Source: Histomonas meleagridis (lineage: Eukaryota; Parabasalia; Tritrichomonadida; Dientamoebidae). Taken from it: a stretch of DNA of 64,000 nucleotides. The position numbers and the translations under genes were made by a program. The notes beneath the pieces were generated by a model. The model was not told where the DNA came from. It worked only from the letters and a program-made list of their open reading frames with translations, and ran no database searches. The stretch spans positions 1 through 64,000 of the forward strand of contig WSYJ01000083.1 in NCBI GenBank assembly GCA_020186115.1, given 5' to 3'. This document shows positions 5,642-21,433 of the stretch, one piece after another; within the stretch, counting starts at the first letter, position 1; each line of letters opens with the position of its first letter.

Positions 5642-5654
5642 TTCTTCCTCACTT

Positions 5655-6336: not shown

Positions 6337-6352
6337 TCCGCGCTGCTGGAAT
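6337..6352 (-). repeat. tRNA-Tyr 3'-end scar between copies A and B
   Basis: Sixteen bases identical to the last 16 of the tRNA-Tyr gene (ATTCCAGCAGCGCGGA on the minus strand, equal to 21352-21367). They lie exactly between the 3' end of copy B (6353) and the 5' end of copy A (6336). This is read as the target-site duplication left by insertion of B into the tRNA gene. Confidence 0.9.
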
Positions 6353-6465
6353 TTGGTGTTTATTTACGTGTGTTAGTGCTCATTTGGAATGAGTATGTGT
6401 TGTATAATGACGCGTCCGTCTTAATTTATTGTAGGTTAACCCTACTGTTATGATCAATGTTAGAA
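6353..6465 (-). other. Copy B 3' UTR with two hairpins
   Basis: About 110 bases between the stop codon and the 3' end. It contains GTAGG-GTTAA-CCTAC and CTCATT-CCA-AATGAG hairpins (minus strand) and ends TAAATAAACACCAA directly at the tRNA scar. There is no poly(A) tail. In R2-type elements a structured 3' UTR is what the reverse transcriptase recognises; that role here is inferred. Confidence 0.6.
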
Positions 6466-6807
6466 CTGTTCTTTGGGGGTGGTCGAAACCGTTTTAATAG
6501 ATCGTGTCACTTTTGTTTTCTTCTTATTCTTTTTAATAGTAGAATCTTTAACTATTTCTTCTTTCTTTTTTGCATTGATCGCGTATTGCAAAAGTCTAGA
6601 TGATCGTACAACTCTTGTTCGTCTTTTTAACTCGTTAATACTTTTTCCTTTAAGTATTGAGTTCATCTTCGTCAAGTTATCTTCTTTCTTCTTCTTTTTG
6701 TTCTTGTCTATAATAAAGATCTTTCCTTTTATTATAGATTTTTGTATATTATCTTCTTTGATCGGTTTATTGTACTTCCTCTCTGCTTCATTTAATGCGA
6801 ATTTCAT
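6460..6807 (-). CDS. Copy B C-terminal basic tail
   Basis: Encodes a strongly basic, lysine-rich end of the retrotransposon protein, finishing STTPKEQF just before the 3' UTR. It is the continuation of 6827-7330: copy B has one extra A in a run near 6855, and copy C shifts at a different run, so neither copy is continuous but they agree on the coding frame. The sequence at this position is identical in copy C (13968-14315). No domain is recognised. A basic tail after the nuclease could bind RNA or DNA; this is a guess. Confidence 0.55.
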   Translation of the reverse strand: MKFALNEAERKYNKPIKEDNIQKSIIKGKIFIIDKNKKKKKEDNLTKMNSILKGKSINELKRRTRVVRSSRLLQYAINAKKKEEIVKDSTIKKNKKKTKVTRSIKTVSTTPKEQF

Positions 6808-6826
6808 GTATTCCTTTTGTTCTTCT

Positions 6827-7330
6827 TCATTGGTATCTGATGGTTCTGAGTTTGAAAAAAATATCTGAAAAAGGTACTTCTTCTAATTCTTCATCTTCAT
6901 CTTTATCTTCTTCTTCTTCTTCAGGATTATAATTATCTTCATCAATAACATTAAAGTCTTCTTCTTCTCTTTCTATATTGTTTATATTATTGTTATTATT
7001 CTTATTTTGATTTTTATCTTTCTCATAAATTCTGTAAAATATTAACATAGATTCTCTCAATGCTGCAATAACACATCTTCTTGAAACTAAATGTATTAAT
7101 CTTTTGTTTCCATTAAATAATTTCTTTAAATCTTTAGTAGTTTGATTCGGGATAATTCCTAATGATGAAATAATAATTATATAAAAATCTACTTCTATAT
7201 TAAGTCTATTTTTGCATAATTCTATATAATCTCTATATTTTTCTTCTTTTTTCTTTTCTTCTAATAATAAGAGTTGATTCAGAGTTGTTATCGAGATTTC
7301 TGATCGTACCATACGGAGAATTGACTTCAA
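6827..7330 (-). CDS. Copy B endonuclease C-terminal half and acidic tail
   Basis: From about residue 27 on this frame gives EEKYRDYIELCKNRLNIEVDFYIIIISSLGIIP, the back half of the restriction-like endonuclease, then SRRCVIAALRESMLIFYR. An Asn- and Glu-rich low-complexity stretch (EEEEEDKDEDEELEE) follows. The first 26 residues listed in this frame are a wrong-frame reading of the nuclease core. The catalytic part (KPDIW and LIEVNSPYG) lies just upstream in the next frame at about 7300-7380. Confidence 0.6.
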   Translation of the reverse strand: MKSILRMVRSEISITTLNQLLLLEEKKKEEKYRDYIELCKNRLNIEVDFYIIIISSLGIIPNQTTKDLKKLFNGNKRLIHLVSRRCVIAALRESMLIFYRIYEKDKNQNKNNNNNINNIEREEEDFNVIDEDNYNPEEEEEDKDEDEELEEVPFSDIFFKLRTIRYQ

Positions 7331-7520
7331 TTAAAGTTAATCTATTGTTATTAATATACCATATGTCTGGTTTTAATGTTCCAATTGTTTTGTAATCTTT
7401 GTCTATTACTTTGGTGTTCCTATTAAATATTATATTATTACCTTCATAATTATTTTCTTTAATTCCTTTAATTATTTCTTCTACTATTGCATTATGTCTT
7501 TTAGTAGTTAAATTTCTAAT
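7290..7520 (-). pseudogene. Copy B restriction-like endonuclease core
   Basis: No ATG-initiated frame covers this stretch, but one minus-strand frame reads TTKRHNAIVEEII, then LKPDIWYINNN, then LTLIEVNSPYG. This matches the RHN, KPD and E(V)xxPY blocks of the restriction-like endonuclease of R2/R4/NeSL retrotransposons, the enzyme that nicks the target for target-primed reverse transcription. It is separated from the CCHC knuckle by a one-base shift in an A-run near 7527, present in both B and C. Confidence 0.65.
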
Positions 7521-8052
7521 TTTTTAAGCAACCATTAATTCTATGCATTAATGAATCATTTTGATTTAAATTACATCTATTGCATTTAGGATTTATATTT
7601 GGGTTTTTCTTATTTAAGATTTCATTTGTTGGTAAATTGTTACATCTTGCTAAAATAGCGAACTTAATAATATTATTACTTGTTGGTGCTCTAAAATTAG
7701 ATAAAAAGAAGTTTGAATCAGTTGATTTATCCATTGTACAGAAAGTATGTGCTTTAAATGGTAATTTCTTAAGGTTGTCTAGGTGTTTTTTTCGTATCAT
7801 TTTATTTAAATATTTTGTAATGTCTTTCTCATTAATAAATTCTTCTGTTTCTTCTTCCTCTTCTTTATTTTCTTTATTATCGATTTGATAGATAATACAA
7901 TTATTTTCTTCTAGGTTTGGTTTAAAACCTACTTTTAAGTTATATAATGCTTTTACCGCTCTACAAAATGTACTATTTGTTTTTCTTTCCGATTTTTGTA
8001 TAATTTTACCTTTATTATCAAAAGGAATTCCAAAATAAGGTGAGTTTTTCAT
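7516..8052 (-). CDS. Copy B RT thumb/linker and CCHC knuckle
   Basis: Encodes the region between the reverse transcriptase and the nuclease. It ends with CNRCNLNQNDSLMHRINGC, a CCHC zinc knuckle of the kind that precedes the endonuclease in RLE-type non-LTR elements. The frame stops (TAG) a few residues later; one base fewer in the preceding run of six A would join it to RHNAIVEE of the nuclease. It overlaps 8018-8470, from which it is separated by an extra A near 8048 that copy C lacks. Confidence 0.65.
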   Translation of the reverse strand: MKNSPYFGIPFDNKGKIIQKSERKTNSTFCRAVKALYNLKVGFKPNLEENNCIIYQIDNKENKEEEEETEEFINEKDITKYLNKMIRKKHLDNLKKLPFKAHTFCTMDKSTDSNFFLSNFRAPTSNNIIKFAILARCNNLPTNEILNKKNPNINPKCNRCNLNQNDSLMHRINGCLKN

Positions 8053-8470
8053 CTACTTGTATTTTCCTATAGTCTAATTCTTTGTACATTGTCATTCTAA
8101 TAAAATTCCTGATATTTAAATCCTTTGATAATAATAAACCTATAAATGTTCTTAATTGTAACACATAATTTCTTTCTTTAAAAGACATTAAACTTAAACC
8201 TCCTTCTTTATAATGTGTATAAAATAAATCTTTTGGTAAACCTTTTGTATTTAATATTTGATTTATTGAACCTCTAATAAATTCATCAAGTTTTTTAAGT
8301 TCTTTAATAGAGCATAAACCATTTAACATTTCAAAATCTAATTGAGGAGTAATTATTCTTTTAATTGCATCTATTATTTGATTAACTTTTAAAGGAGAAT
8401 TAATTACTTGTATGATTTCTTGTTTAATTTTATTGATTTTTAGTTTGAGAATGTTGTTTTTTACTTTCAC
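8018..8470 (-). CDS. Copy B reverse transcriptase thumb region
   Basis: Encodes about 150 residues following the palm. LFYTHYKEGGLSLMSFKERNYVLQLRTFIGLLL is the conserved segment after the RT in R2-like proteins (compare the GGLGI motif found there). In copy C the same frame runs on into the knuckle region as one 257-residue frame (15204-15977), which shows that the break near 8048 in B is a single-base difference. Confidence 0.6.
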   Translation of the reverse strand: MKVKNNILKLKINKIKQEIIQVINSPLKVNQIIDAIKRIITPQLDFEMLNGLCSIKELKKLDEFIRGSINQILNTKGLPKDLFYTHYKEGGLSLMSFKERNYVLQLRTFIGLLLSKDLNIRNFIRMTMYKELDYRKIQVDEKLTLFWNSF

Positions 8471-8759
8471 GATTTATTGCTATTGGTGCACCTAAATATT
8501 CTATATATTCCATTAATGGATGATTTGGTATTTCTTCATTATTAATAGTAAAACATTCATTTAAAGTTGGTCTTATATTATTAAAATATATATAAGATAG
8601 AGTCTTACATTTTTGTGAAGCTATTTTAAGTTTAAATATTTTACAAAATTCTTCTACTGTTTTAATCATATTTTGCATTCCATCTTGTGTATTAGAAATT
8701 AATATAACATCATCTGCATAAGCTTGAATATTAAAAAAAAAAAATTCATTTTCTCTCAT
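8430..8759 (-). CDS. Copy B reverse transcriptase palm (YADD)
   Basis: Contains IQAYADDVILISNTQ, the RT catalytic motif with the two metal-binding aspartates, followed by palm and early thumb blocks (IEYLGAPI). It is preceded by the fingers and first catalytic Asp in 8902-10752, joined through GVRQGCPLSPTLFN in an intermediate frame (about 8850-8900). Homopolymer runs at 8736-8747 and 8948 are where the frames part. Confidence 0.75.
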   Translation of the reverse strand: MRENEFFFFNIQAYADDVILISNTQDGMQNMIKTVEEFCKIFKLKIASQKCKTLSYIYFNNIRPTLNECFTINNEEIPNHPLMEYIEYLGAPIAINRESKKQHSQTKNQ

Positions 8760-8901
8760 TGGATCTTCTATAATTACTCCATCTTTTTTATTATAATTTT
8801 GTATTGCTTTGATTAAAGGTTCAAGACATAAATTAAATAGTGTTGGTGATAGAGGACAACCTTGTCTGACACCTCTATTGATGTTAATCCAATCTGAAGG
8901 T

Positions 8902-10752
8902 TTATTTCTTAGTTCTATTCTTGTTTTGGTATCTGTATATAAGTCTTTTTATTAATTTGATAAAATAATTCGGGAATCCTAATTGATTTAATGACCAAGT
9001 AATAAGCTTGTGAGGTACTGAATCGAAGGCTTTGGCGAAATCTAATGTTGTAATATAAATCGAATCTTTTGACCTCACTGATTGTGCAATTATTTCATTT
9101 ATATTCGTAATGTGTTCAGTTATCCCATTGATATTGGTTTTAAAACCTTTTTGTACTGAACTTATGAATGGCGAAGAAACATTTAAATCTTGAATGCATC
9201 GTGCAAAGTGGCACATCATAATTCTGTATAAAGTTGGTGATATTGAAATTGGTCTCCAATTGGTGATTTCATCTGGATTATTCTTCTTAAATAACAATAT
9301 AGTTCTTGATATTTTCCATAATTCTGGAATTTTCTTGAATCTCATTATTTGTTTAATTATGTTTCTGATTAATTTGACTGTAATATTAATTTTGATTTTC
9401 CAAATGGTATTAGAAATACCATCTGGACCTGTAGCTGATAAATTTGGTCTTGTAATAATTGCTTGTTTGATTCTGTCTTTGTCTAGTAACATTAGCTTAA
9501 GTAATTCTTCATCTTTGTTATCTAAGTTTTTATTCAAACAAAATATATCTGGAATATTGTTTTCTTGGTAATTTGGGAGGAATTCCCATTCATCTTTAAA
9601 ATGCTTTTCTATTTTCTCAAATTCAATGTTGCATTCTGGTGTTGGTTCATTTGTAATGAACCATCTCATGGCTCTTTTTGGGTCTTCTGCATACATATCT
9701 TGCACCAATTGTGTATATTTCTTATTCCTTTCTTTTGAAATTTCGTTTTGATATTTGATTAATGAATTTTCAATATACTTCATTCTTTGCTCTCGATGAT
9801 TTGGTTCTTCATCTATGATATTTCTGATATTATCTATATTATCACCTCCAAATGTAGTCATTAAAATTTCTTTGTCAATCTTATTTAATGCTTCTTTTAT
9901 TGCCTCTTCTAAATAAGAGATGGAATTATTTCTTGTATCTGATTCTTGAAGTTTTTTTAGTTTGATAATTTTTTCCATATGCGATATTATTTTAAATAAT
10001 TGGTTTTCTTGAATATATTTTCTTCTTAAATTTGTATTATGAATATTATCATTATTATCTTTCTTTTTATTGTTGCTTAAGCCTAACATATGATTTAATG
10101 GGATTTTGAGAGTTTTCCTAATAGTTTTTCTTAATATTAAATTAATTTTGCATAAACAACCTTGAAATATAATCCATTCTTCTTCTGTTTTTTCTTTAGT
10201 TTTACATTTCTTAAGCAAAGGTAAAATTTTGTTTTCAAAAACATTACTAATTTCTTTATAAATTTTATTTTTTTTTTTTTTATTAATTCTTGGTAATCTG
10301 ATTATATGTGATTCTTGGAATTCATTCGCAAATATCCATTTTTTGCATTTATTAAGTAAAGTTTCTCTATCATTAATTGGTTGGTTCCTTGTGACTATCT
10401 TGTCTGCTGTTAATGAGTTAGTGTTATTAATTTCACTTTTATTTGTATCATTATCTTGGTTGATTTCTAATACTTCTACGTTGTTAATATTTGCTTTTTT
10501 GACTCGTTTTTCTTGTTTTCTATTCTCCTGTTTCTTCCTTTTTATTACATCATCTTTATTTTTAAATTCAATTTCAATTTCACCTTTTGCTAATTTGTTT
10601 AAGTTTTCTTTAGTTTCTTCTTCATTTCTTTTTAATCTTTTCTTCAATCTCTTTAATTTCATCTTTATCAGGATAATTAAAAACAATTGATTTAAATTTA
10701 ACTTGATGTATAGGGATCTTAATATTTTCTTTTCTTGAAATATTATGCGCAT
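8902..10752 (-). CDS. Copy B basic linker and reverse transcriptase fingers/palm
   Basis: 616 residues. The first part is Lys/Glu-rich (about 35-100). Residues around 440 carry the RT fingers block SATGPDGISN, then NWRPISISPTLYRI, and DFAKAFDSVPH near 569 supplies the first catalytic aspartate. This block order identifies a non-LTR reverse transcriptase. The frame is lost at IKRLIYRYQ because of one extra T near 8948 that copy C does not have. In C the motif GVRQGCPLSP follows directly. Confidence 0.8.
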   Translation of the reverse strand: MRIIFQEKKILRSLYIKLNLNQLFLIILIKMKLKRLKKRLKRNEEETKENLNKLAKGEIEIEFKNKDDVIKRKKQENRKQEKRVKKANINNVEVLEINQDNDTNKSEINNTNSLTADKIVTRNQPINDRETLLNKCKKWIFANEFQESHIIRLPRINKKKKNKIYKEISNVFENKILPLLKKCKTKEKTEEEWIIFQGCLCKINLILRKTIRKTLKIPLNHMLGLSNNKKKDNNDNIHNTNLRRKYIQENQLFKIISHMEKIIKLKKLQESDTRNNSISYLEEAIKEALNKIDKEILMTTFGGDNIDNIRNIIDEEPNHREQRMKYIENSLIKYQNEISKERNKKYTQLVQDMYAEDPKRAMRWFITNEPTPECNIEFEKIEKHFKDEWEFLPNYQENNIPDIFCLNKNLDNKDEELLKLMLLDKDRIKQAIITRPNLSATGPDGISNTIWKIKINITVKLIRNIIKQIMRFKKIPELWKISRTILLFKKNNPDEITNWRPISISPTLYRIMMCHFARCIQDLNVSSPFISSVQKGFKTNINGITEHITNINEIIAQSVRSKDSIYITTLDFAKAFDSVPHKLITWSLNQLGFPNYFIKLIKRLIYRYQNKNRTKK

Positions 10753-10813
10753 GACTATTATGTAAAATTATATTTTTATGTGTTTCTGCTAATGCTTTTT
10801 TACAAAAAATCAC
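10622..10813 (-). CDS. Copy B finger 5 fragment
   Basis: A 63-residue frame starting IFCKKALAETHKNIILHNSHAH. Together with the preceding YICD (in the next frame) this is a C2H2-like finger with Cys-x2-Cys and spaced histidines. One T too many near 10803 separates the cysteines. The matching stretch in copy C has its second Cys replaced by a run of Phe. The fragment continues in frame into DEIKEIEEKIKKK of the linker. Confidence 0.5.
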   Translation of the reverse strand: MIFCKKALAETHKNIILHNSHAHNISRKENIKIPIHQVKFKSIVFNYPDKDEIKEIEEKIKKK

Positions 10814-10883
10814 AAATATATGCTTTCCTTTTTTCTTAATAATATATTTGCTGTTGGATTTATATCATATCTTTGAATATAGT

Positions 10884-11858
10884 TTAAAAATTAAAGCCCA
10901 CATCCATCCAAAATCTCTTTTTATCTTCATTATAATTGGAGTGTCTTTTCACTATATGGTTATTAAATGTGTCTTCACAATCTGTAATATAATTACAATT
11001 ATGTAAAGGACATGCATAAAGAGTTTTCCGATAAGTTGAAAGTTGTTTATTACCTTTATCAAATTGCATCCAATATGTTTTTTTTCTTAATATCGATCCT
11101 AAACAATCATAAATAATATTCCCATTTCTTCTTTTTTTTTTTTTTTCTGAATTTTCATGCCTCTTTAAGTCGGTGACTGCATTGAAAGCTTGATAATCAC
11201 ATTTATGGCAAATAAATGGACCAATACCTGGGAATTTATCGAAAACTAACATTAGATTTATGATAGGTATTCTTGTTTCATCTGTTTTATTTAAGAATAG
11301 ATCTTTATCAATTTTATAACTTCTCCATTTATCAATTGTTTGTTTTAACTCTAATGTTGTTTTAATATTTTTAAGGTTGAGATAAAGTTCTTCTGGCGTG
11401 TGTATAATGATTTCTTTATTCATATTAACATTATTATTGTTGTTTGGTGGTGTATTCTCATTGGGTTCATTATTGCTTTCGATATTTTGATTTACTTGTT
11501 GTGATTCTTCTACTGTTTGTTTAACATCATCATCCTTGAAGTTAGTTACTTTGTTATTATTCGATGTTTTATTAGTTTCTTCATTTTTGCTTTGAATGAA
11601 ATTATAATTTCCACTTGGTACAATAATATCAATATCTTTATAAATATAATTAATTTTTGGGATTGTAATGTTAATATTTGTTTGCGATTCATTAACTTTG
11701 ATATTTGGAATAGTTATTGTTTTATTTTCATCGATATAATTGAAGTTTGGTGTTTTTAATATAAATATTTTCACTCGTAACATTAATTTCGGGTTTTGGA
11801 ATATTAATTTTATTTTCTGAATAACAAAAGTTTGGTATAGGGACATTAATATTTTCAT
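10884..11858 (-). CDS. Copy B end of IPKF repeats and fingers 3-4
   Basis: 324 residues. The N-terminal 100 hold the last units of the IPKF repeat (ITIPNIKVNESQ, ITIPKINYIYKD). A Gln/Asn-rich spacer follows, then a helical segment EELYLNLKNIKTTLELKQTIDKWR. Two C2H2 fingers come next: FICHKCDYQAFNAVTDLKRHENS and CPLHNCNYITDCEDTFNNHIVKRH. In copy B the last His of the first of these is lost, because AHNG is replaced by a run of Lys at 11132-11146. In R2-type elements such fingers bind the target DNA. Confidence 0.65.
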   Translation of the reverse strand: MKILMSLYQTFVIQKIKLIFQNPKLMLRVKIFILKTPNFNYIDENKTITIPNIKVNESQTNINITIPKINYIYKDIDIIVPSGNYNFIQSKNEETNKTSNNNKVTNFKDDDVKQTVEESQQVNQNIESNNEPNENTPPNNNNNVNMNKEIIIHTPEELYLNLKNIKTTLELKQTIDKWRSYKIDKDLFLNKTDETRIPIINLMLVFDKFPGIGPFICHKCDYQAFNAVTDLKRHENSEKKKKRRNGNIIYDCLGSILRKKTYWMQFDKGNKQLSTYRKTLYACPLHNCNYITDCEDTFNNHIVKRHSNYNEDKKRFWMDVGFNF

Positions 11859-12282
11859 TAACTTGATTTATTTTAAGATTTGGAATATCAATTGTTTCTT
11901 CAGCATGATTATATTTTGGAATAATAACATTCTTTACTTCATTTTGAACTTTAAAGTCTGGGATTGGGATATTAATATTAAGATCTTGTCTAAAATATTT
12001 TGGTATTGAGATATTTGTTTCATTTTCTGTAAGGTTAAATTTAGGTATAATAACATTTTTCTCTTCGTTCTGTACTTTATAATCTGGGATTGGGATATTA
12101 ACATTAAGATCTTGTCTAAAATATTTTGGTAATGAAATATTTGTTTCGTTTTCTGTAATATTAAACTTAGGTATAGTAATATTTTTTCTCTTCATTTTGT
12201 AAATTAAATTTAGGCATTGGAATATTAATATCGAAATCTTGTTTGTGATATTTAGGCAATAAAATATTGTTAATTTCTTCAT
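11728..12282 (-). CDS. Copy B IPKF repeat domain, middle
   Basis: 184 residues, nearly all tandem units of about 13 residues with a core of I-x-I-P-x-F/Y (for example IITIPKFNITENET, ISLPKYFRQDL, IPIPDYKVQNEE, IIPKFNLTENET). The alternation of short hydrophobic strands with charged turns suggests a beta-solenoid or fibre. I know of no described domain in non-LTR elements with this repeat. Frame breaks at T/A runs separate it from the units in 12436-12714. Confidence 0.6.
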   Translation of the reverse strand: MKKLTIFYCLNITNKISILIFQCLNLIYKMKRKNITIPKFNITENETNISLPKYFRQDLNVNIPIPDYKVQNEEKNVIIPKFNLTENETNISIPKYFRQDLNINIPIPDFKVQNEVKNVIIPKYNHAEETIDIPNLKINQVNENINVPIPNFCYSENKINIPKPEINVTSENIYIKNTKLQLYR

Positions 12283-12435
12283 TTATATTAAATTTCGGAA
12301 TCCTAATGTATTGATCTTTTTGTATAAAATTAATTTTGGGAATCGGTAAATTTTTTGATCTCTTCTATTATTTCTATTTTTGGTACTTGAATATTTTCTT
12401 CATATCTTTCAACATTAAATTCTGGGATTGTAATA

Positions 12436-12714
12436 TCATTTTTCTTCTGTTGTTTTATTAAAATGTGGTATTATAACATCTTCTGGAAATATTTTAAAGT
12501 TTGGGATTCTAATGTTTATATCTTGTGAATTTAAATTGGGATTAGGTCTGTTATTAGGATTATCATTATCACCTGTAATAATTCCTAATGTTGGGAATTT
12601 ATTGTTTTTGGATAAAAGAAATAGAAAACCATCAAAGAAAACAACATTTTCTGAGCATATCACTATAATAAACATTTGAGTTTGCGTGATCCGTGAGATG
12701 TAAACCATATTCAT
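12436..12714 (-). CDS. Copy B start of IPKF repeats
   Basis: Encodes the stretch after the second N-terminal finger: FFDGFLFLLSKNNKFPTLGIITGDNDNP, then the first repeat units (IRIPNFKIFPEDVIIPHFNKTTEE). It is a fragment of the larger protein; in copy C the same sequence is in frame with everything upstream (19549-21351). Confidence 0.55.
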   Translation of the reverse strand: MNMVYISRITQTQMFIIVICSENVVFFDGFLFLLSKNNKFPTLGIITGDNDNPNNRPNPNLNSQDINIRIPNFKIFPEDVIIPHFNKTTEEK

Positions 12715-12758
12715 CAGAATTATTTATTTGTATTTTATTACAGAATGGACACTTAATA

Positions 12759-13844
12759 TTAAAAAATTATTCCTGGTTCCTCACTTTCTTCAATTGCATT
12801 AGTATTAATGTTAAGGAAGTTAACTATGTCTATATCTCTGAATCTCATATATGGTGCTAATTCAATTCTTCTCCCTTTATGAAACTTGTTTAAATGTATA
12901 AATAATTCTTCAACGCTTTCGTTAAAAAAAAAAAAAAAAGGAAACCATGGACAAAATAATAATTCTTTTTTCATATTATTTCGTATTGCTATCGGTAAGT
13001 TGTAGTATGTGAATCTTATTTCATTCCTCATTAAATTTATTTCATCTCCTGTTAGTGTTCTTGGTCTAAGCATTATATCTTCTACTTCTGTATCTGTACA
13101 AGTTTCTTCATCATCTGCATAGTATTCTTGCTCATTAACTATCTTCATATGGTATCTAGTGATACTTGGTACTAATTGTGGATGTGTTTGGTAACTTGGT
13201 GTTTGATCTGATCGAAATCTGATTTCGAGATTTTGTTCTTCATTTGGTCCCATATTCTCTCTGAAAGGTTCTGGACTGGTGTATGTCGATTCTGTGTTGC
13301 TTGCGGTGTACTTCGTTGAACTTTCTTCTGCATCTAATCGAAATCTGATTTCGGAATTTCGTTCGTCATATGGGCTTGAACTTTCTCTGAAAGGTTCTGG
13401 GCTGGTGTATATTGATTCTGTGTTGCTTGCGGTGTACTCTGTTGAACTTTCTTCTGCATCTGATCGAAATCTGATTTCGAAATTTCGTTCGTCTCTTGGG
13501 CTCAAACTTTCTCTGAATGGCTCTGGGCTGGTGTATATTGATTCTGTGTTGCTTGTGATGTTCTCCGTCGAACTTTCTTCTGCATCTGATTCAGGATGGC
13601 CGGACTTAAAAAACGGGTTCTTCTTGATAAATTTAGCATTATTAGGCTCTATTTTTGGTCTTGATTTTCGTGTTGTGCATAGTTTCGAGCCTAAATGTTT
13701 ATCTCGGAGAGATAATCTGATATGTTCCGAGATTCTCCAATGATCGTCGGAACTCATATGGTTCTGCTCCTCTCCGGGAGCTCTATCCAATGGTGCGCTT
13801 TTCCCCTCTCTAAGTTGCTCAGGTGAAAAAAATAAAAAATCCAT
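12759..13844 (-). CDS. Copy B N-terminal region with 42-residue repeats
   Basis: 361 residues from an ATG that starts one base from the tRNA scar. Three units of about 42 residues (SDAEESSTEYTASNTESIYTSPEPFRE...) span about residues 80-205. VNEQEYYADDEE and MRNEIRFTYYNLP follow, and then the first C2H2 finger. In B the second Cys of this finger is lost because CTWQ is overwritten by Phe codons (12924-12939); copy C keeps FCPWFPFCTWQ. The frame ends before the second finger. There is no room for a 5' UTR, so the transcript must begin in or before the tRNA, or start downstream. Confidence 0.65.
   Translation of the reverse strand: MDFLFFSPEQLREGKSAPLDRAPGEEQNHMSSDDHWRISEHIRLSLRDKHLGSKLCTTRKSRPKIEPNNAKFIKKNPFFKSGHPESDAEESSTENITSNTESIYTSPEPFRESLSPRDERNFEIRFRSDAEESSTEYTASNTESIYTSPEPFRESSSPYDERNSEIRFRLDAEESSTKYTASNTESTYTSPEPFRENMGPNEEQNLEIRFRSDQTPSYQTHPQLVPSITRYHMKIVNEQEYYADDEETCTDTEVEDIMLRPRTLTGDEINLMRNEIRFTYYNLPIAIRNNMKKELLFCPWFPFFFFFNESVEELFIHLNKFHKGRRIELAPYMRFRDIDIVNFLNINTNAIEESEEPGIIF
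13270..13580 (-). repeat. 126-bp in-frame tandem repeat, copy B
   Basis: Units of 126 bp (42 codons) beginning at CTGAAAGGTTCTGGACTGGTG and its variants. B has a middle unit (TCATATGGGCTTGAA) not present in C, while the outer units are shared. This points to recombination or slippage within the array. Confidence 0.75.
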
Positions 13845-13860
13845 TCCGCGCTGCTGGAAT
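13845..13860 (-). repeat. tRNA-Tyr 3'-end scar between copies B and C
   Basis: The same 16 bases as at 6337-6352 and at the 3' end of the intact tRNA-Tyr (21352-21367). It sits exactly between the 3' end of copy C and the 5' end of copy B. Confidence 0.92.
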
Positions 13861-13973: not shown

Positions 13974-14315
13974 CTGTTCTTTGGGGGTGGTCGAAACCGT
14001 TTTAATAGATCGTGTCACTTTTGTTTTCTTCTTATTCTTTTTAATAGTAGAATCTTTAACTATTTCTTCTTTCTTTTTTGCATTGATCGCGTATTGCAAA
14101 AGTCTAGATGATCGTACAACTCTTGTTCGTCTTTTTAACTCGTTAATACTTTTTCCTTTAAGTATTGAGTTCATCTTCGTCAAGTTATCTTCTTTCTTCT
14201 TCTTTTTGTTCTTGTCTATAATAAAGATCTTTCCTTTTATTATAGATTTTTGTATATTATCTTCTTTGATCGGTTTATTGTACTTCCTCTCTGCTTCATT
14301 TAATGCGAATTTCAT
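13968..14315 (-). CDS. Copy C C-terminal basic tail
   Basis: Same 115-residue basic sequence as 6460-6807. It is separated from the acidic tail (14335-14568) by a homopolymer shift at a different run from that in B: C has six A near 14376 where B has five, and six near 14366 where B has seven. Confidence 0.55.
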   Translation of the reverse strand: MKFALNEAERKYNKPIKEDNIQKSIIKGKIFIIDKNKKKKKEDNLTKMNSILKGKSINELKRRTRVVRSSRLLQYAINAKKKEEIVKDSTIKKNKKKTKVTRSIKTVSTTPKEQF

Positions 14316-14334
14316 GTATTCCTTTTGTTCTTCT

Positions 14335-15040
14335 TCATTGGTATCTGATGGTTCTGAGTTTGAAAAAATATCTGAAAAAAGGTACTTCTTCTAATTCTTC
14401 ATCTTCATCTTTATCTTCTTCTTCTTCTTCAGGATTATAATTATCTTCATCAATAACATTAAAGTCTTCTTCTTCTCTTTCTATATTGTTTATATTATTG
14501 TTATTATTCTTATTTTGATTTTTATCTTTCTCATAAATTCTGTAAAATATTAACATAGATTCTCTCAATGCTGCAATAACACATCTTCTTGAAACTAAAT
14601 GTATTAATCTTTTGTTTCCATTAAATAATTTCTTTAAATCTTTAGTAGTTTGATTCGGGATAATTCCTAATGATGAAATAATAATTATATAAAAATCTAC
14701 TTCTATATTAAGTCTATTTTTGCATAATTCTATATAATCTCTATATTTTTCTTCTTTTTCTTTTCTTCTAATAATAAGAGTTGATTCAGAGTTGTTATCG
14801 AGATTTCTGATCGTACCATACGGAGAATTGACTTCAATTAAAGTTAATCTATTGTTATTAATATACCATATGTCTGGTTTTAATGTTCCAATTGTTTTGT
14901 AATCTTTGTCTATTACTTTGGTGTTCCTATTAAATATTATATTATTACCTTCATAATTATTTTCTTTAATTCCTTTAATTATTTCTTCTACTATTGCATT
15001 ATGTCTTTTAGTAGTTAAATTTCTAATTTTTTAAGCAACC
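14335..15040 (-). pseudogene. Copy C restriction-like endonuclease and acidic tail
   Basis: The nuclease (RHNAIVEE, KPDIW, LIEVNSPYG) and the following EEKYRDYIEL segment are present, but shifts near 15028 and 14752 leave no long open frame. The last 77 residues (14335-14568) are open and hold the Asn/Glu-rich tail. The shift between the CCHC knuckle and the nuclease (A-run near 15028) is the same as in copy B. Confidence 0.65.
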
Positions 15041-15203
15041 ATTAATTCTATGCATTAATGAATCATTTTGATTTAAATTACATCTATTGCATTTAGGATT
15101 TATATTTGGGTTTTTCTTATTTAAGATTTCATTTGTTGGTAAATTGTTACATCTTGCTAAAATAGCGAACTTAATAATATTATTACTTGTTGGTGCTCTA
15201 AAA

Positions 15204-15977
15204 TTAGATAAAAAAGAAGTTTGAATCAGTTGATTTATCCATTGTACAGAAAGTATGTGCTTTAAATGGTAATTTCTTAAGGTTGTCTAGGTGTTTTTTT
15301 CGTATCATTTTATTTAAATATTTTGTAATGTCTTTCTCATTAATAAATTCTTCTGTTTCTTCTTCCTCTTCTTTATTTTCTTTATTATCGATTTGATAGA
15401 TAATACAATTATTTTCTTCTAGGTTTGGTTTAAAACCTACTTTTAAGTTATATAATGCTTTTACCGCTCTACAAAATGTACTATTTGTTTTTCTTTCCGA
15501 TTTTTGTATAATTTTACCTTTATTATCAAAAGGAATTCCAAAATAAGGTGAGTTTTCATCTACTTGTATTTTCCTATAGTCTAATTCTTTGTACATTGTC
15601 ATTCTAATAAAATTCCTGATATTTAAATCCTTTGATAATAATAAACCTATAAATGTTCTTAATTGTAACACATAATTTCTTTCTTTAAAAGACATTAAAC
15701 TTAAACCTCCTTCTTTATAATGTGTATAAAATAAATCTTTTGGTAAACCTTTTGTATTTAATATTTGATTTATTGAACCTCTAATAAATTCATCAAGTTT
15801 TTTAAGTTCTTTAATAGAGCATAAACCATTTAACATTTCAAAATCTAATTGAGGAGTAATTATTCTTTTAATTGCATCTATTATTTGATTAACTTTTAAA
15901 GGAGAATTAATTACTTGTATGATTTCTTGTTTAATTTTATTGATTTTTAGTTTGAGAATGTTGTTTTTTACTTTCAC
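15204..15977 (-). CDS. Copy C reverse transcriptase thumb and linker
   Basis: 257 residues joining what are two frames in copy B. It holds YKEGGLSLMSFKERNYVLQLRTF of the RT thumb and a Glu-rich insert EEEEETEEFINEKD. It ends at a shift (extra A near 15215) just before the CCHC knuckle, which is encoded in the next frame at about 15045-15110. Confidence 0.65.
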   Translation of the reverse strand: MKVKNNILKLKINKIKQEIIQVINSPLKVNQIIDAIKRIITPQLDFEMLNGLCSIKELKKLDEFIRGSINQILNTKGLPKDLFYTHYKEGGLSLMSFKERNYVLQLRTFIGLLLSKDLNIRNFIRMTMYKELDYRKIQVDENSPYFGIPFDNKGKIIQKSERKTNSTFCRAVKALYNLKVGFKPNLEENNCIIYQIDNKENKEEEEETEEFINEKDITKYLNKMIRKKHLDNLKKLPFKAHTFCTMDKSTDSNFFFI

Positions 15978-16266
15978 GATTTATTGCTATTGGTGCACCT
16001 AAATATTCTATATATTCCATTAATGGATGATTTGGTATTTCTTCATTATTAATAGTAAAACATTCATTTAAAGTTGGTCTTATATTATTAAAATTTATAT
16101 AAGATAAAGTTTTGCATTTTTGTGAAGCTATTTTAAGTTTAAAAATTTTACAAAATTCTTCTACTGTTTTAATCATATTTTGCATTCCATCTTGTGTATT
16201 AGAAATTAATATAACATCATCTGCATAAGCTTGAATATTAAAAAAGAAAAATTCATTTTCTCTCAT
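15937..16266 (-). CDS. Copy C reverse transcriptase palm (YADD)
   Basis: 109 residues containing IQAYADDVILISNTQ. The corresponding A-run in B has a G here (16245), showing that B and C differ inside runs. It overlaps the thumb frame at 15977. Confidence 0.75.
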   Translation of the reverse strand: MRENEFFFFNIQAYADDVILISNTQDGMQNMIKTVEEFCKIFKLKIASQKCKTLSYINFNNIRPTLNECFTINNEEIPNHPLMEYIEYLGAPIAINRESKKQHSQTKNQ

Positions 16267-16297
16267 TGGATCTTCTATAATTACTCCATCTTTTTTA

Positions 16298-17755
16298 TTA
16301 TAATTTTTGTATTGCTTTGATTAAAGGTTCAAGACATAAATTAAATAGTGTTGGTGATAGAGGACAACCTTGTCTGACACCTCTATTGATGTTAATCCAA
16401 TCTGAAGGTTTATTTCTTAGTTCTATTCTTGTTTTGGTATCTGTATATAAGTCTTTTATTAATTTGATAAAATAATTCGGGAATCCTAATTGATTTAATG
16501 ACCAAGTAATAAGCTTGTGAGGTACTGAATCGAAGGCTTTGGCGAAATCTAATGTTGTAATATAAATCGAATCTTTTGACCTCACTGATTGTGCAATTAT
16601 TTCATTTATATTCGTAATGTGTTCAGTTATCCCATTGATATTGGTTTTAAAACCTTTTTGTACTGAACTTATGAATGGCGAAGAAACATTTAAATCTTGA
16701 ATGCATCGTGCAAAGTGGCACATCATAATTCTGTATAAAGTTGGTGATATTGAAATTGGTCTCCAATTGGTGATTTCATCTGGATTATTCTTCTTAAATA
16801 ACAATATAGTTCTTGATATTTTCCATAATTCTGGAATTTTCTTGAATCTCATTATTTGTTTAATTATGTTTCTGATTAATTTGACTGTAATATTAATTTT
16901 GATTTTCCAAATGGTATTAGAAATACCATCTGGACCTGTAGCTGATAAATTTGGTCTTGTAATAATTGCTTGTTTGATTCTGTCTTTGTCTAGTAACATT
17001 AGCTTAAGTAATTCTTCATCTTTGTTATCTAAGTTTTTATTCAAACAAAATATATCTGGAATATTGTTTTCTTGGAAATTTGGGAGGAATTCCCATTCAT
17101 CTTTAAAATGCTTTTCTATTTTCTCAAATTCAATGTTGCATTCTGGTGTTGGTTCATTTGTAATGAACCATCTCATGGCTCTTTTTGGGTCTTCTGCATA
17201 CATATCTTGCACCAATTGTGTATATTTCTTATTCCTTTCTTTTGAAATTTCGTTTTGATATTTGATTAATGAATTTTCAATATACTTCATTCTTTGCTCT
17301 CGATGATTTGGTTCTTCATCTATGATATTTCTGATATTATCTATATTATCACCTCCAAATGTAGTCATTAAAATTTCTTTGTCAATCTTATTTAATGCTT
17401 CTTTTATTGCCTCTTCTAAATAAGAGATGGAATTATTTCTTGTATCTGATTCTTGAAGTTTTTTTAGTTTGATAAATTTTTTTCCATATGCGATATTATT
17501 TTTAAATAATTGGTTTTCTTGAATATATTTTCTTCTTAAATTTGTATTATGAATATTATCATTATTATCTTTCTTTTTATTGTTGCTTAAGCCTAACATA
17601 TGATTTAATGGGATTTTGAGAGTTTTCCTAATAGTTTTTCTTAATATTAAATTAATTTTGCATAAACAACCTTGAAATATAATCCATTCTTCTTCTGTTT
17701 TTTCTTTAGTTTTACATTTCTTAAGCAAAGGTAAAATTTTGTTTTCAAAAAACAT
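16298..17755 (-). CDS. Copy C reverse transcriptase, fingers to GVRQGCPLSP
   Basis: 485 residues and the most complete RT frame in the window. Blocks in order: SATGPDGISN, NWRPISISPTLYRI, QKGFKTNINGITEH, DFAKAFDSVPH (first catalytic Asp), INRGVRQGCPLSPTLFNLCLEPL. This block order and the GVRQGCPLSP sequence are diagnostic for non-LTR retrotransposon RTs. The frame stops in a T-run near 16300, shortly before the YADD block. Confidence 0.82.
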   Translation of the reverse strand: MFFENKILPLLKKCKTKEKTEEEWIIFQGCLCKINLILRKTIRKTLKIPLNHMLGLSNNKKKDNNDNIHNTNLRRKYIQENQLFKNNIAYGKKFIKLKKLQESDTRNNSISYLEEAIKEALNKIDKEILMTTFGGDNIDNIRNIIDEEPNHREQRMKYIENSLIKYQNEISKERNKKYTQLVQDMYAEDPKRAMRWFITNEPTPECNIEFEKIEKHFKDEWEFLPNFQENNIPDIFCLNKNLDNKDEELLKLMLLDKDRIKQAIITRPNLSATGPDGISNTIWKIKINITVKLIRNIIKQIMRFKKIPELWKISRTILLFKKNNPDEITNWRPISISPTLYRIMMCHFARCIQDLNVSSPFISSVQKGFKTNINGITEHITNINEIIAQSVRSKDSIYITTLDFAKAFDSVPHKLITWSLNQLGFPNYFIKLIKDLYTDTKTRIELRNKPSDWININRGVRQGCPLSPTLFNLCLEPLIKAIQKL

Positions 17756-18263
17756 TACTAATTTCTTTATAAATTTTATTTTTAATATTTTTATTAATTC
17801 TTGGTAATCTGATTATATGTGATTCTTGGAATTCATTCGCAAATATCCATTTTTTGCATTTATTAAGTAAAGTTTCTCTATCATTAATTGGTTGGTTCCT
17901 TGTGACTATCTTGTCTGCTGTTAATGAGTTAGTGTTATTAATTTCACTTTTATTTGTATCATTATCTTGGTTGATTTCTAATACTTCTACGTTGTTAATA
18001 TTTGCTTTTTTGACTCGTTTTTCTTGTTTTCTATTCTCCTGTTTCTTCCTTTTTATTACATCATCTTTATTTTTAAATTCAATTTCAATTTCACCTTTTG
18101 CTAATTTGTTTAAGTTTTCTTTAGTTTCTTCTTCATTTCTTTTTAATCTTTTCTTCAATCTCTTTAATTTCATCTTTATCAGGATAATTAAAAACAATTG
18201 ATTTAAATTTAACTTGATGTATAGGGATCTTAATATTTTCTTTTCTTGAAATATTATGCGCAT
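17745..18263 (-). CDS. Copy C basic linker
   Basis: 172 residues, rich in Lys and Glu (KRLKRNEEETKENLNKL, KRKKQENRKQEKRVKK), then a helical segment (ETLLNKCKKWIFANEF). It links the fingers to the RT. A single extra A near 17755 separates it from the RT frame. A Myb-like domain is common at this position in R2-type elements, but I cannot identify one here. Confidence 0.55.
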   Translation of the reverse strand: MRIIFQEKKILRSLYIKLNLNQLFLIILIKMKLKRLKKRLKRNEEETKENLNKLAKGEIEIEFKNKDDVIKRKKQENRKQEKRVKKANINNVEVLEINQDNDTNKSEINNTNSLTADKIVTRNQPINDRETLLNKCKKWIFANEFQESHIIRLPRINKNIKNKIYKEISNVF

Positions 18264-18759
18264 GACTATTATGTAAAATTATATTTTTATGTGTTTCTGC
18301 TAAAAAAAAAAAAAAAAAATCACAAATATATGCTTTCCTTTTTCTTAATAATATATTTGCTGTTGGATTTATATCATATCTTTGAATATAGTTTAAAATT
18401 AAAGCCCACATCCATCCAAAATCTCTTTTATCTTCATTATAATTGGAGTGTCTTTTCACTATATGGTTATTAAATGTGTCTTCACAATCTGTAATATAAT
18501 TACAATTATGTAAAGGACATGCATAAAGAGTTTTCCGATAAGTTGAAAGTTGTTTATTACCTTTATCAAATTGCATCCAATATGTTTTTTTTCTTAATAT
18601 CGATCCTAAACAATCATAAATAATATTCCCATTTCTTCTTTTTCCATTATGGGCTGAATTTTCATGCCTCTTTAAGTCGGTGACTGCATTGAAAGCTTGA
18701 TAATCACATTTATGGCAAATAAATGGACCAATACCTGGGAATTTATCGAAAACTAACAT
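18133..18759 (-). CDS. Copy C C2H2 fingers 3-5
   Basis: 208 residues. FICHKCDYQAFNAVTDLKRHENSAH is a complete C2H2 finger, and CPLHNCNYITDCEDTFNNHIVKRH a second. A third begins YICDF, but its second Cys is replaced by Phe codons from the 18-A run at 18302-18319; copy B retains CKKALAETHKN there. The role is presumably target DNA recognition, as in R2-type proteins; the target would be the tRNA-Tyr T-arm. Confidence 0.7.
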   Translation of the reverse strand: MLVFDKFPGIGPFICHKCDYQAFNAVTDLKRHENSAHNGKRRNGNIIYDCLGSILRKKTYWMQFDKGNKQLSTYRKTLYACPLHNCNYITDCEDTFNNHIVKRHSNYNEDKRDFGWMWALILNYIQRYDINPTANILLRKRKAYICDFFFFFLAETHKNIILHNSHAHNISRKENIKIPIHQVKFKSIVFNYPDKDEIKEIEEKIKKK

Positions 18760-18868
18760 TAGATTTATGATAGGGATTCGAGCTTGATCGGTTTTATTTA
18801 ATAATAGATCTTTATCAATTTTATAACTTCTCCATTTATCAATTGTTTGTTTTAACTCTAATGTTGTT

Positions 18869-19366
18869 TTAATATTTTTTAAGGTTGAGATAAAGTTCTT
18901 CTGGCGTGTGTATAATGATTTCTTTATTCATATTAACATTATTATTGTTGTTTGGTGGTGTATTCTCATTGGGTTCATTATTGCTTTCGATATTTTGATT
19001 TACTTGTTGTGATTCTTCTACTGTTTGTTTAACATCATCATCCTTGAAGTTAGTTACTTTGTTATTATTCGATGTTTTATTAGTTTCTTCATTTTTGCTT
19101 TGAATGAAATTATAATTTCCACTTGGTACAATAATATCAATATCTTTATAAATATAATTAATTTTTGGGATTGTAATGTTAATATTTGTTTGCGATTCAT
19201 TAACTTTGATATTTGGAATAGTTATTGTTTTATTTTCATCGATATAATTGAAGTTTGGTGTTTTTAATATAAATATTTTCACTCGTAACATTAATTTCGG
19301 GTTTTGGAATATTAATTTTATTTTCTGAATAACAAAAGTTTGGTATAGGGACATTAATATTTTCAT
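18869..19366 (-). CDS. Copy C last IPKF units and Asn-rich spacer
   Basis: 165 residues equivalent to the first half of 10884-11858 in B: three to four IPKF-type units, then the Asn/Gln-rich spacer and the start of the helical segment. It ends early through an extra T near 18876. Confidence 0.55.
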   Translation of the reverse strand: MKILMSLYQTFVIQKIKLIFQNPKLMLRVKIFILKTPNFNYIDENKTITIPNIKVNESQTNINITIPKINYIYKDIDIIVPSGNYNFIQSKNEETNKTSNNNKVTNFKDDDVKQTVEESQQVNQNIESNNEPNENTPPNNNNNVNMNKEIIIHTPEELYLNLKKY

Positions 19367-19790
19367 TAACTTGATTTATTTTAAGATTTGGAATATCAAT
19401 TGTTTCTTCAGCATGATTATATTTTGGAATAATAACATTCTTTACTTCATTTTGAACTTTAAAGTCTGGGATTGGGATATTAATATTAAGATCTTGTCTA
19501 AAATATTTTGGTATTGAAATATTTGTTTCATTTTCTGTAAGGTTAAATTTAGGTATAATAACATTTTTTCTCTTCGTTCTGTACTTTATAATCTGGGATT
19601 GGGATATTAACATTAAGATCTTGTCTAAAATATTTTGGTAATGAAATATTTGTTTCGTTTTCTGTAATATTAAACTTAGGTATAGTAATATTTTTCTCTT
19701 CATTTTGTAAATTAAATTTAGGCATTGGAATATTAATATCGAAATCTTGTTTGTGATATTTAGGCAATAAAATATTGTTAATTTCTTCAT
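19236..19790 (-). CDS. Copy C IPKF repeat domain, second part
   Basis: Residues from about 70 on read IIPKFNLTENETNISIPKYFRQDL and further units. The first part is a wrong-frame reading, since the true frame there belongs to 19549-21351. An extra T near 19566 splits the domain. Confidence 0.5.
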   Translation of the reverse strand: MKKLTIFYCLNITNKISILIFQCLNLIYKMKRKILLYLSLILQKTKQIFHYQNILDKILMLISQSQIIKYRTKRKNVIIPKFNLTENETNISIPKYFRQDLNINIPIPDFKVQNEVKNVIIPKYNHAEETIDIPNLKINQVNENINVPIPNFCYSENKINIPKPEINVTSENIYIKNTKLQLYR

Positions 19791-21351
19791 TTATATTAAA
19801 TTTCGGAATCCTAATGTATTGATCTTTTTGTATAAAATTAATTTTGGGAATCGGTAAATTTTTGATCTCTTCTATTATTTCTATTTTTGGTACTTGAATA
19901 TTTTCTTCATATCTTTCAACATTAAATTCTGGGATTGTAATATCATTTTCTTCTGTTGTTTTATTAAAATGTGGTATTATAACATCTTCTGGAAATATTT
20001 TAAAGTTTGGGATTCTAATGTTTATATCTTGTGAATTTAAATTGGGATTAGGTCTGTTATTAGGATTATCATTATCACCTGTAATAATTCCTAATGTTGG
20101 GAATTTATTGTTTTTGGATAAAAGAAATAGAAAACCATCAAGAAAACAACATTTTCTGAGCATATCACTATAATAAACATTTGAGTTTGCGTGATCCGTG
20201 AGATGTAAACCATATTCATCAGAATTATTTAATTGTATTTTTATTACAGAATGGACACTTAATATTAAAAAATTATTCCCTGGTTCCTCACTTTCTTCAA
20301 TTTCATTATTATTAATGTTAAGTAAATTAACTATGTCTATATCTCTGAATCTCATATATGGTGCTAATTCAATTCTTCTCCCTTTATGAAACTTGTTTAA
20401 ATGTATAAATAATTCTTCAACGCTTTCGTTTTGCCAAGTACAAAAAGGAAACCATGGACAAAATAATAATTCTTTTTTCATATTATTTCGTATTGCTATC
20501 GGTAAGTTGTAGTATGTGAATCTTATTTCATTCCTCATTAAATTTATTTCATCTCCTGTTAGTGTTCTTGGTCTAAGCATTATATCTTCTACTTCTGTAT
20601 CTGTACAAGTTTCTTCATCATCTGCATAGTATTCTTGCTCATTAACTATCTTCATATGGTATCTAGTGATACTTGGTACTAATTGTGGATGTGTTTGGTA
20701 ACTTGGTGTTTGATCTGATCGAAATCTGATTTCGAGATTTTGTTTTTCATTTGGTCCCATATTCTCTCTGAAAGGTTCTGGACTGGTGTATGTCGATTCT
20801 GTGTTGCTTGCGGTGTACTCCGTTGAACTTTCTTCTGCATCTGATCGAAATCTGATTTCGAAATTTCGTTCGTCTCTTGGGCTCAAACTTTCTCTGAAAG
20901 GTTCTGGACTGGTGTATGTCGATTCTGTGTTGCTTGCGGTGTACTCTGTTGAACTTTCTTCTGCATCTGATCGAAATCTGATTTCGAAATTTCGTTCGTC
21001 TCTTGGGCTCAAACTTTCTCTGAATGGCTCTGGGCTGGTGTATATTGATTCTGTGTTGCTTGTGATGTTCTCCGTCGAACTTTCTTCTGCATCTGATTCA
21101 GGATGGCCGGACTTAAAAAACGGGTTCTTCTTGATAAATTTAGCATTATTAGGCTCTATTTTTGGTCTTGATTTTCGTGTTGTGCATAGTTTCGAGCCTA
21201 AATGTTTATCTCGGAGAGATAATCTGATATGTTCGGAGATTCTCCAATGATCGTCGGAACTCATATGGTTCTGCTCCTCTCCGGGAGCTCTATCCAATGG
21301 TGCGCTTTTCCCCTCTCTAAGTTGCTCAGGTGAAAAAAATAAAAAATCCAT
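19549..21351 (-). CDS. Copy C N-terminal protein: repeats, two fingers, IPKF domain
   Basis: 600 residues, the longest intact view of the element's N-terminus. Residues about 85-210: three 42-residue units. About 290-330: first C2H2 finger (FCPWFPFCTWQ, then FIHLNKFHKG). About 365-390: second finger, histidines HLTDHANS visible; its Cys half appears shifted (LSVHSV instead of a CPFC-type sequence). About 420-600: at least ten IPKF units. The ATG at 21351 follows the tRNA discriminator base immediately; Met30 (MSSDDHW) is an alternative start. The protein would continue through all downstream modules in an undamaged element. Confidence 0.7.
   Translation of the reverse strand: MDFLFFSPEQLREGKSAPLDRAPGEEQNHMSSDDHWRISEHIRLSLRDKHLGSKLCTTRKSRPKIEPNNAKFIKKNPFFKSGHPESDAEESSTENITSNTESIYTSPEPFRESLSPRDERNFEIRFRSDAEESSTEYTASNTESTYTSPEPFRESLSPRDERNFEIRFRSDAEESSTEYTASNTESTYTSPEPFRENMGPNEKQNLEIRFRSDQTPSYQTHPQLVPSITRYHMKIVNEQEYYADDEETCTDTEVEDIMLRPRTLTGDEINLMRNEIRFTYYNLPIAIRNNMKKELLFCPWFPFCTWQNESVEELFIHLNKFHKGRRIELAPYMRFRDIDIVNLLNINNNEIEESEEPGNNFLILSVHSVIKIQLNNSDEYGLHLTDHANSNVYYSDMLRKCCFLDGFLFLLSKNNKFPTLGIITGDNDNPNNRPNPNLNSQDINIRIPNFKIFPEDVIIPHFNKTTEENDITIPEFNVERYEENIQVPKIEIIEEIKNLPIPKINFIQKDQYIRIPKFNINEEINNILLPKYHKQDFDINIPMPKFNLQNEEKNITIPKFNITENETNISLPKYFRQDLNVNIPIPDYKVQNEEKKCYYT
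20770..21090 (-). repeat. 126-bp in-frame tandem repeat, copy C
   Basis: Three units starting at 20770, 20896 and 21022, each exactly 126 bp apart, coding for the 42-residue Ser/Glu/Thr-rich unit. The first two are almost identical to each other, which indicates recent homogenisation. Confidence 0.8.
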
Positions 21352-21433
21352 TCCGCGCTGCTGGAATCGAACCAGCGACCCTTTGATGACTACTTTTCTA
21401 CAGTCAAATGCTCTACCACTGAGCTAAGAGCGG
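21352..21433 (-). tRNA. tRNA-Tyr (GTA) with a very short intron
   Basis: Reads CCGCTCT acceptor, TAGCTCAGTGG A box, D arm, anticodon stem TTTGA/TCAAA, five-base variable loop, T arm GCTGG-TTCGATT-CCAGC and acceptor AGCGCGG with discriminator A. C1-G72 is typical of eukaryotic tRNA-Tyr. The acceptor has one mismatch. The anticodon loop starts CTGTA and is 17 bases long instead of 7, so an intron of about 10 bases follows base 37, the standard place. T-runs just downstream (21332-21348) can terminate RNA polymerase III. This gene is the insertion target of the retrotransposon, and its 3' end is repeated as scars at 13845 and 6337. Confidence 0.92.

Follow-up and report, generated by a model that had tools for sequence, protein, structure and literature searches.

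Retrotransposons encoding a restriction-like endonuclease at the T-loop of at least seven tRNAs in Histomonas meleagridis

The window analysed here, a stretch of 64,000 nucleotides at the start of contig C52 (WSYJ01000083.1) of the virulent strain of Histomonas meleagridis, a parasite of poultry, carries copies of a retrotransposon lacking long terminal repeats (non-LTR) stacked behind a tRNA-Tyr gene. Searches of the whole genome (121 contigs, 43.3 Mb) placed this element in what is very probably a family of non-LTR retrotransposons encoding a restriction-like endonuclease (RLE) that has radiated over at least seven tRNAs, with one lineage per tRNA, an insertion point in the T-loop that restores the gene, and stacking of copies behind the tRNA. 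The seven target tRNAs were Tyr(GTA), Cys(GCA), Lys(TTT), Ile(GAT), Met(CAT), Asn(GTT), and Arg(ACG). All counts from the genome searches are lower bounds.

The tRNA-Tyr array and its counterparts at other tRNAs

The array in the window consists of the following features, listed from the tRNA outward:

21352-21433, minus strand: intact tRNA-Tyr gene at the head of the array, with a short intron (ARAGORN and sequence); T60-A73, the duplicated part, corresponds to 21365-21352
13861-21351, minus strand: retrotransposon copy C, 7491 bp
21333-21346, minus strand: T-run TTTTTTATTTTTTT at the 5' end of copy C, a proposed RNA polymerase III (Pol III) terminator (from the sequence)
13845-13860, minus strand: 3' end of tRNA-Tyr left as a stub, ATTCCAGCAGCGCGGA, at the C/B boundary
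6353-13844, minus strand: retrotransposon copy B, ~99% identical to C
6337-6352, minus strand: tRNA-Tyr stub at the B/A boundary
1082-6336 (lower end approximate), minus strand: copy A, older and internally deleted, with two nested DNA transposons (BLAST against C)

ARAGORN reported the gene at 21352-21433 as tRNA-???, and its Tyr identity was read from GTA in the anticodon loop. In both B and C, ATTCCAGCAGCGCGG plus A (15-16 bp) came immediately after the 3' end ...GTAAATAAACACCAA, and the 5' end of the next element came after that; the 14-mer 3' end of tRNA-Tyr (up to one mismatch) occurred twice in the window versus a mean of 0.17 in shuffled sequence. A first-pass annotation of this DNA had described three stacked minus-strand copies within 6337-21433, of which C, B, the stubs, and the intact tRNA stand, while copy A lies outside that interval and is broken rather than whole. 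By BLAST against C, copy A retained ~1.25 kb at its 5' end and two pieces of its 3' part, at 72-85% identity; it gave no RT (reverse transcriptase) match and no recognisable 3' end, and the tRNA-Tyr 3'-end search found no stub behind it. The two transposons nested in copy A are a mariner-type element at 1272-2560 (DDE_3 and Transposase_1 matches; 38-nt inverted ends, 74% complementary) and an element at 2767-5092 with an IS1595/ISXO2-type transposase and 51-nt ends (86% complementary). The alignment of copies B and C (7503 columns) showed 67 substitutions and 21 indels; 20 indels were single-base and mostly in homopolymers. The N-terminal part of the element contains 126-bp (42-codon) tandem repeats (11880-12305, 13193-13590, 19388-19940, and 20700-21097), one block of which has three copies in C versus two in B.

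Genome-wide, the exact 24-mer at the element 3' end occurred seven times and was followed in all seven cases by ATTCCAGCAGCGCGG, once with a one-base change, which bears out the earlier proposal that this element targets tRNA-Tyr. The 15-mer at the tRNA-Tyr 3' end was found at 22 sites (21 exact, one with one mismatch; reversed control, 0) that comprised 11 intact genes and 11 stubs, every stub lying directly behind element sequence, which at C2:7049 was without its last ~32 bp. An element 5' end stood directly behind 20 of the 22 sites (recognisable as short pieces on C40 and C66) and directly behind 10 of the 11 tRNA-Tyr genes found. The stub on C120 ran into DNA without an element match, and behind the gene on C68 (L024) an element remnant of 77% identity started at ~357 bp. 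This remnant ruled out C68 as an empty tRNA-Tyr control, and therefore no clean empty tRNA-Tyr was found.

RT matches were collected across the genome (93 matches, the best 88 of 136 candidates being scored) and resolved into 61 elements, and a second RT query from another lineage added four (the best 57 of 153 candidates scored), for a total of 65. Counting sites up to 5.5 kb upstream and 3.5 kb downstream of the RT match, 62 of the 65 elements had a same-strand site of one of the seven tRNAs, whereas one had an opposite-strand site. The elements were distributed among the targets as Asn 25, Tyr 15, Lys 5, Met 5, Ile 5, Arg 4, and Cys 3. Thirty-nine elements had a site on both sides, and in all 39 the two sites belonged to the same tRNA; in one of them, a Cys element on C57, the downstream bound was the intact gene L087 and no stub. 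The distance from RT to stub was narrow within a lineage, for example 2003-2005 bp in all five Ile elements. Sites matching the tRNA ends with at most one mismatch numbered 10 for Cys, 16 for Lys, 21 for Ile, 12 for Met (one of them neither gene nor stub), 37 for Asn, and 12 for Arg, and the reversed controls gave one for Asn and 0 for every other tRNA. Among genes whose flanks were read, an element 5' end stood behind 5 of 8 Cys (two as short pieces), 6 of 7 Lys, 6 of 7 Met, and 4 of 6 Ile genes, the last out of 16 intact Ile 3' ends. An Rfam tRNA search, with the best 63 of 2480 candidates scored, served as a lead only. Two pairs of tRNA-Cys genes are divergent, L085/L086 (C57:690004-, 690702+) and L083/L084 (C40:102316-, 104079+), with an element 5' end behind each gene, one of the two in each pair being a short piece.

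In a maximum-likelihood tree of 40 RT rows (Arg represented by one row, from C83, and Ile by none), the Tyr, Cys, Lys, Met, and Asn groups each formed one clade with support of 100/100; C84:2543, a fourth Lys-site element, fell in the Lys clade, and unk_C16m, which lies at an Asn site, fell in the Asn clade. The Histomonas rows shared a clade with outside proteins (97/90), apart from the two named R2 rows, and four Ulp1-bearing proteins, used as NeSL-like stand-ins in a tree with no named NeSL row, lay outside it. The R2 rows and those of elements with an apurinic/apyrimidinic-type endonuclease (APE) were long-branched, and the deep placement is unsure. A clade made up of Histomonas rows alone was rejected (p 0.003), the relatives P0001, P0002, and P0076-P0080 falling among or beside the Histomonas lineages; the lineages are therefore either older than the host species or have moved between hosts.

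Insertion point and encoded protein

Junctions are described here by the standard tRNA position numbering. Element 3' junctions were read at 11 Tyr, four Met, two Cys, one Asn, and one Arg site, and in every lineage with a junction read the element 3' end fell within the T-loop. The two Asn genes read had G and T at position 59; among the 37 Asn sites 11 had G or T and 26 had A or C, and sites between two elements had A or C. At Ile, the 16 exact sites had G and five stubs had A or T. Stub and gene carried the same base for Tyr, Cys, Met, and Arg, and for Lys they agreed in two of five stubs. Because Asn and Ile genes differ from their stubs at this base, position 59 seems to come with the element, the target resuming at position 60. 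The other end of the duplication was visible at the Cys insertion on C78 and the Met insertion on C33, where the head and the far flank, the latter without an element match, diverged from the first base after position 73. Positions 60-73 are therefore duplicated, a length of 14 bp that rises to as much as 16 bp if bases 58-59 are included; since the duplication covers the tRNA 3' part to its last base, the gene is whole again after insertion.

A T-run occurred within the first bases of the elements in all seven lineages at the loci read, and a native T-rich flank was found behind the stub on C120 (Tyr), C78 (Cys), and C33 (Met). Of the 22 tRNA-Tyr ends, the 20 with an element directly behind them all led into a T-run of this kind, preceded by variable bases (AATGG, ATGG, ATGA, or none). 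As the bases preceding it in Tyr (AATGG, ATGG, ATGA) and in Met (AAATGGATCA) recurred from locus to locus but did not occur in the far flanks, the T-run in these two lineages is element sequence.

These junctions suggest an order of events. The protein would bind one tRNA gene, presumably via its zinc fingers, and a bottom-strand nick in the T-loop between positions 59 and 60, where the junction is seen, would prime reverse transcription as in R2. A top-strand cut ~14 bp further, at the last base of the tRNA, would account for where the duplication stops at the Cys insertion on C78 and the Met insertion on C33. The duplication would rebuild the complete tRNA seen upstream of the element and leave the 14-16 bp stub seen downstream, and the T-run at the element 5' end would replace the displaced native terminator, presumably serving Pol III in its place. 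The restored gene would again be a full target, later copies entering between it and the earlier copy, so that arrays could grow behind a complete tRNA gene.

The proteins of copy C supplied the following features, all on the minus strand:

16216-17755, minus strand: RT (RVT_1, E 2.7e-22, at ~16304-16792, Pfam; YADD at 16227-16216, in the next frame)
18717-18649 and 18519-18448, minus strand: two C2H2 zinc-finger patterns upstream of RT (pattern search; Pfam zinc-finger matches below cut-off)
within the first open reading frame (ORF), 19549-21351, minus strand: a CX5CX12HX4H sequence, read by eye
14830-15091, minus strand: C-terminal RLE motifs, namely a CCHC knuckle (15091-15035), RHN (15006-14998), and PD-X12-E (14877-14830) (pattern search)

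The RLE is recognised by RH[N/D] and PD-X11-14-D/E motifs, and zinc fingers, RT, CCHC, and RLE in this order are the R2-type arrangement. Judged from these predicted products, the element is a non-LTR retrotransposon that encodes an RLE and belongs to the R2 group in architecture; RVT_1, CCHC, RHN, and PD-X12-E were all present, in agreement with the first-pass assignment to RLE-bearing non-LTR elements. Its RT was nearer to R2 than to APE elements, its C-terminal part carried the CCHC and RLE motifs, and its N-terminal part carried zinc fingers. The best PDB matches were R2 first and LINE-1 second, with R2 E values of 4.5e-40 for the Cys lineage and 8.5e-60 for the outside relative P0001; the RT tree, in which the APE rows were set as outgroup, is hence no independent test of this affinity. 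RHD and PD...E were also present in the C-terminal fragment L057, and the copy B ORF matching the CCHC/RLE ORF of C had a zf-RVT match under the Pfam cut-off. An AlphaFold model of P0001 (mean predicted local distance difference test score 33.7) was discarded.

Assignment to a named clade is a separate matter. R2 inserts in 28S ribosomal DNA (rDNA), and here 62 of the 65 elements lay at tRNA sites. Neither an APE domain nor an Ulp1 protease (PF02902) was found among the ten window ORFs scanned with Pfam, the Ulp1-like protease not being required of every NeSL-clade member. The TRE elements of Dictyostelium have an endonuclease of the APE type, unlike the RLE of Histomonas, and insert outside the tRNA gene, whereas the junction here is inside the T-loop.

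Growth of the arrays

The tRNA-side copies of seven Tyr arrays were ~94-100% identical to copy C over their longest alignments (on C44, the first 192 bp were only 83% identical). Old copies, namely A on C52 and the second copies on C61:79k, C44, C2, and C40 (the last with only ~100 bp recognisable), were never nearest the tRNA side. Accordingly, in the five Tyr arrays with an old copy, the copy nearest the tRNA was young in all five, an arrangement with a chance of ~6% by hand calculation; leaving out the C61:79k array, which had no tRNA-Tyr found upstream, raises this to 11%. The arrays themselves are observed; the earlier proposal that each copy enters between the tRNA and its predecessor is supported by these five arrays but not proven. 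The strict age record envisaged with it is supported only in part: on C2 the third copy, at 96% over its first 415 bp, seems younger than the second, at 86-89%, and B and C cannot be ordered. Copy A is the oldest of the three (72-85% pieces, deleted inside), as had been suggested, but a younger age for C than for B could not be upheld, and these two may be a local duplication. Some single insertions are old as well (C120 and the C68 remnant). The likelier account is that head entry is the rule, with some exchange between copies. In-frame stops were tried as a measure of decay and dropped, since by them the head copies on C92 and C61 looked older, yet their DNA was 97-98% like C.

It is unlikely that the arrays arose mainly from unequal crossing-over between neighbours after one insertion rather than from repeated insertion. 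Such an origin would suit the ~99% identity of B and C and their shared unit of ~7.5 kb, the younger-looking copy behind an older one on C2, and the shortened 3' end at C2:7049, which joins at ATTCC, a sequence present in the element, as a recombination deletion would. However, neighbours diverge widely (~98% versus 77% to C on C61:79k, and 96% versus 66-72% on C44), the 5' variants AATGG, ATGG, ATGA, and none differ between junctions, and there are single insertions with no element match in the far flank (Tyr on C120, Cys on C78, and Met on C33, C71, and C114). A fourth Met flank, on C112, weakly matches the Met 5' end and is therefore weaker as a host flank; this stub flank (L099, C112:966047) is perhaps an old second copy.

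An assembly artefact is very improbable as the source of the tandems. RT matches do reach the contig end on C61, C62, C65, and C16, the window begins near copy A, and B and C differ partly by homopolymer indels; nevertheless, the Tyr, Asn, Ile, and Cys targets all had arrays of at least two elements, spread over many contigs, and in some of these arrays the neighbours have diverged in a way that an assembler would not invent. The RT matches at contig ends mean instead that the arrays are probably longer than assembled. The most array copies were seen in the Asn arrays on C65 and C120.

That the tRNA piece is a tail carried by the element and not its target is scarcely credible: the same 15 bp did stand at all Tyr junctions, but each lineage had a different tRNA end, stubs at single insertions passed into DNA without an element match, and genes without the lineage 5' end in the 300-1500 bases behind them were found for Cys (L082, L087, L089), Lys (L076), Ile (L078, which shares just a 15-bp T-rich piece, and L079), and Met (L098).

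Several observations weigh against a family that radiated over tRNAs by gene-restoring insertion. Three RT-bearing elements (C16:63698, C16:116061, and C16:24216) had no site of the seven tRNAs in reach, many copies have broken frames, and the arrays were seen in assembled contigs. The assembly combined Oxford Nanopore and Illumina reads (PMC8529796), and because the B/C indels are mostly single-base and in homopolymers, decay and base-call error are indistinguishable. The Lys and Ile 3' junctions are known as positions with 16 matched letters, and zinc-finger recognition, target-primed reverse transcription, and terminator function are inferred. The three C16 elements possibly have diverged Asn stubs or an eighth target; a search for a B box joined to a T-run, with matches listed for contigs up to C33, gave none on C8 or C16.

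Transcription and known systems

We considered whether the tRNA gene might be at once promoter, processing site, and renewable landing site, the element RNA being a read-through tail of the tRNA with its 5' end made by tRNase Z. We regard this as possible but doubtful. tRNase Z cuts after the discriminator base, and at the loci read in all seven lineages the first base of the element was the one following position 73 or lay beside it. Successive copies retain these first bases, T-run included, and the RNA therefore cannot start any later than that border. In R2 a self-cleaving ribozyme makes the RNA 5' end, a task that co-transcription would give to tRNase Z, and no Rfam ribozyme was found at the scanned 5' ends of six lineages (all but Arg; ~40 to 2,000 bases each). 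An ATG lay within 20 bases of the border in six of seven lineages; Ile had none in its first 250 bases, and for Arg too few bases were read to judge its frame. The ATG frame was long in two lineages, open through all 499 codons read in Tyr and all 103 in Lys, and shorter in Cys, Met, and Asn, and the short frames in these three lineages weaken the co-transcript hypothesis. In addition, most Pol III transcripts would be expected to terminate at the T-run, transcription may instead start from a Pol II initiator inside the element, and a T-loop cut with a 14-bp stagger yields the border by geometry alone.

Prophages and genomic islands also enter the 3' part of bacterial tRNA genes and restore the gene, with a 3' stub remaining at their distal end, and they too can form stacks, by means of integrases and attachment-site recombination, enzymes unrelated to those of the Histomonas elements. 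A closer likeness is offered by NeSL-1_TV, whose host we take to be Trichomonas vaginalis, another trichomonad. NeSL-1_TV is specific for tRNA-Pro, and LIN15_SM and LIN25_SM of planarians target tRNA-Arg and tRNA-Glu, all three being likewise RLE-type non-LTR elements (PMC4640811), so that tRNA-targeting elements of this kind are already known. In that account each of these families has one reported tRNA target, whereas a single Histomonas genome holds lineages for at least seven different tRNAs; the Histomonas elements also stack, follow nearly all tRNA-Tyr genes, and restore the gene that they enter, features that set them apart from those elements as reported there (PMC4640811). We consider the larger finding to be what goes beyond the known kind, a seven-target radiation in one genome with gene-restoring insertion. 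An Ulp1-like protease has been reported for nematode NeSL and one Utopia. R2 (28S rDNA) and Utopia (U2 small nuclear RNA) share with the Histomonas elements the zinc fingers, RT, CCHC and RLE, and a fixed target in a multicopy RNA gene, and reptile Utopia elements are described with 20-bp duplications (PMC4640811). R2 is described as disrupting its target gene (PMC4370867), in contrast to the duplication in Histomonas, which restores the tRNA gene. The compact genome of Dictyostelium likewise has non-LTR elements associated with tRNA genes, TRE5 and TRE3, of which TRE5-A needs the B box; their described insertion sites, however, lie ~50 bp upstream of many tRNA genes or 100 bp downstream of them (PMC5391098), while in Histomonas the cut falls within the B box, in one tRNA species per lineage.

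A retroelement that rebuilds the essential gene it cuts can reuse that gene repeatedly, which is how 10 of the 11 tRNA-Tyr genes found can carry an element directly behind them. With the same cut position and a different tRNA in each lineage, the family constitutes a natural experiment on DNA reading and target switching by R2-type proteins, whose choice of target currently matters for targeted gene insertion. The stacks preserve part of the history of the elements' activity, and several contigs break off within this repeat class.

The main text of the H. meleagridis genome paper, which does not use the word tRNA, gives 32 retroelements (5,358 bp) for one strain and 23 (2,568 bp) for the other, found with RepeatMasker set to trichomonas (PMC8529796); with only 5,358 bp listed in one strain, the repeat class appears to have been largely overlooked there. 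No report of these H. meleagridis elements was found in the open-access literature searched, most subscription journals and Repbase lying outside that search. One element protein has been deposited, as H. meleagridis GPJ56_000962.

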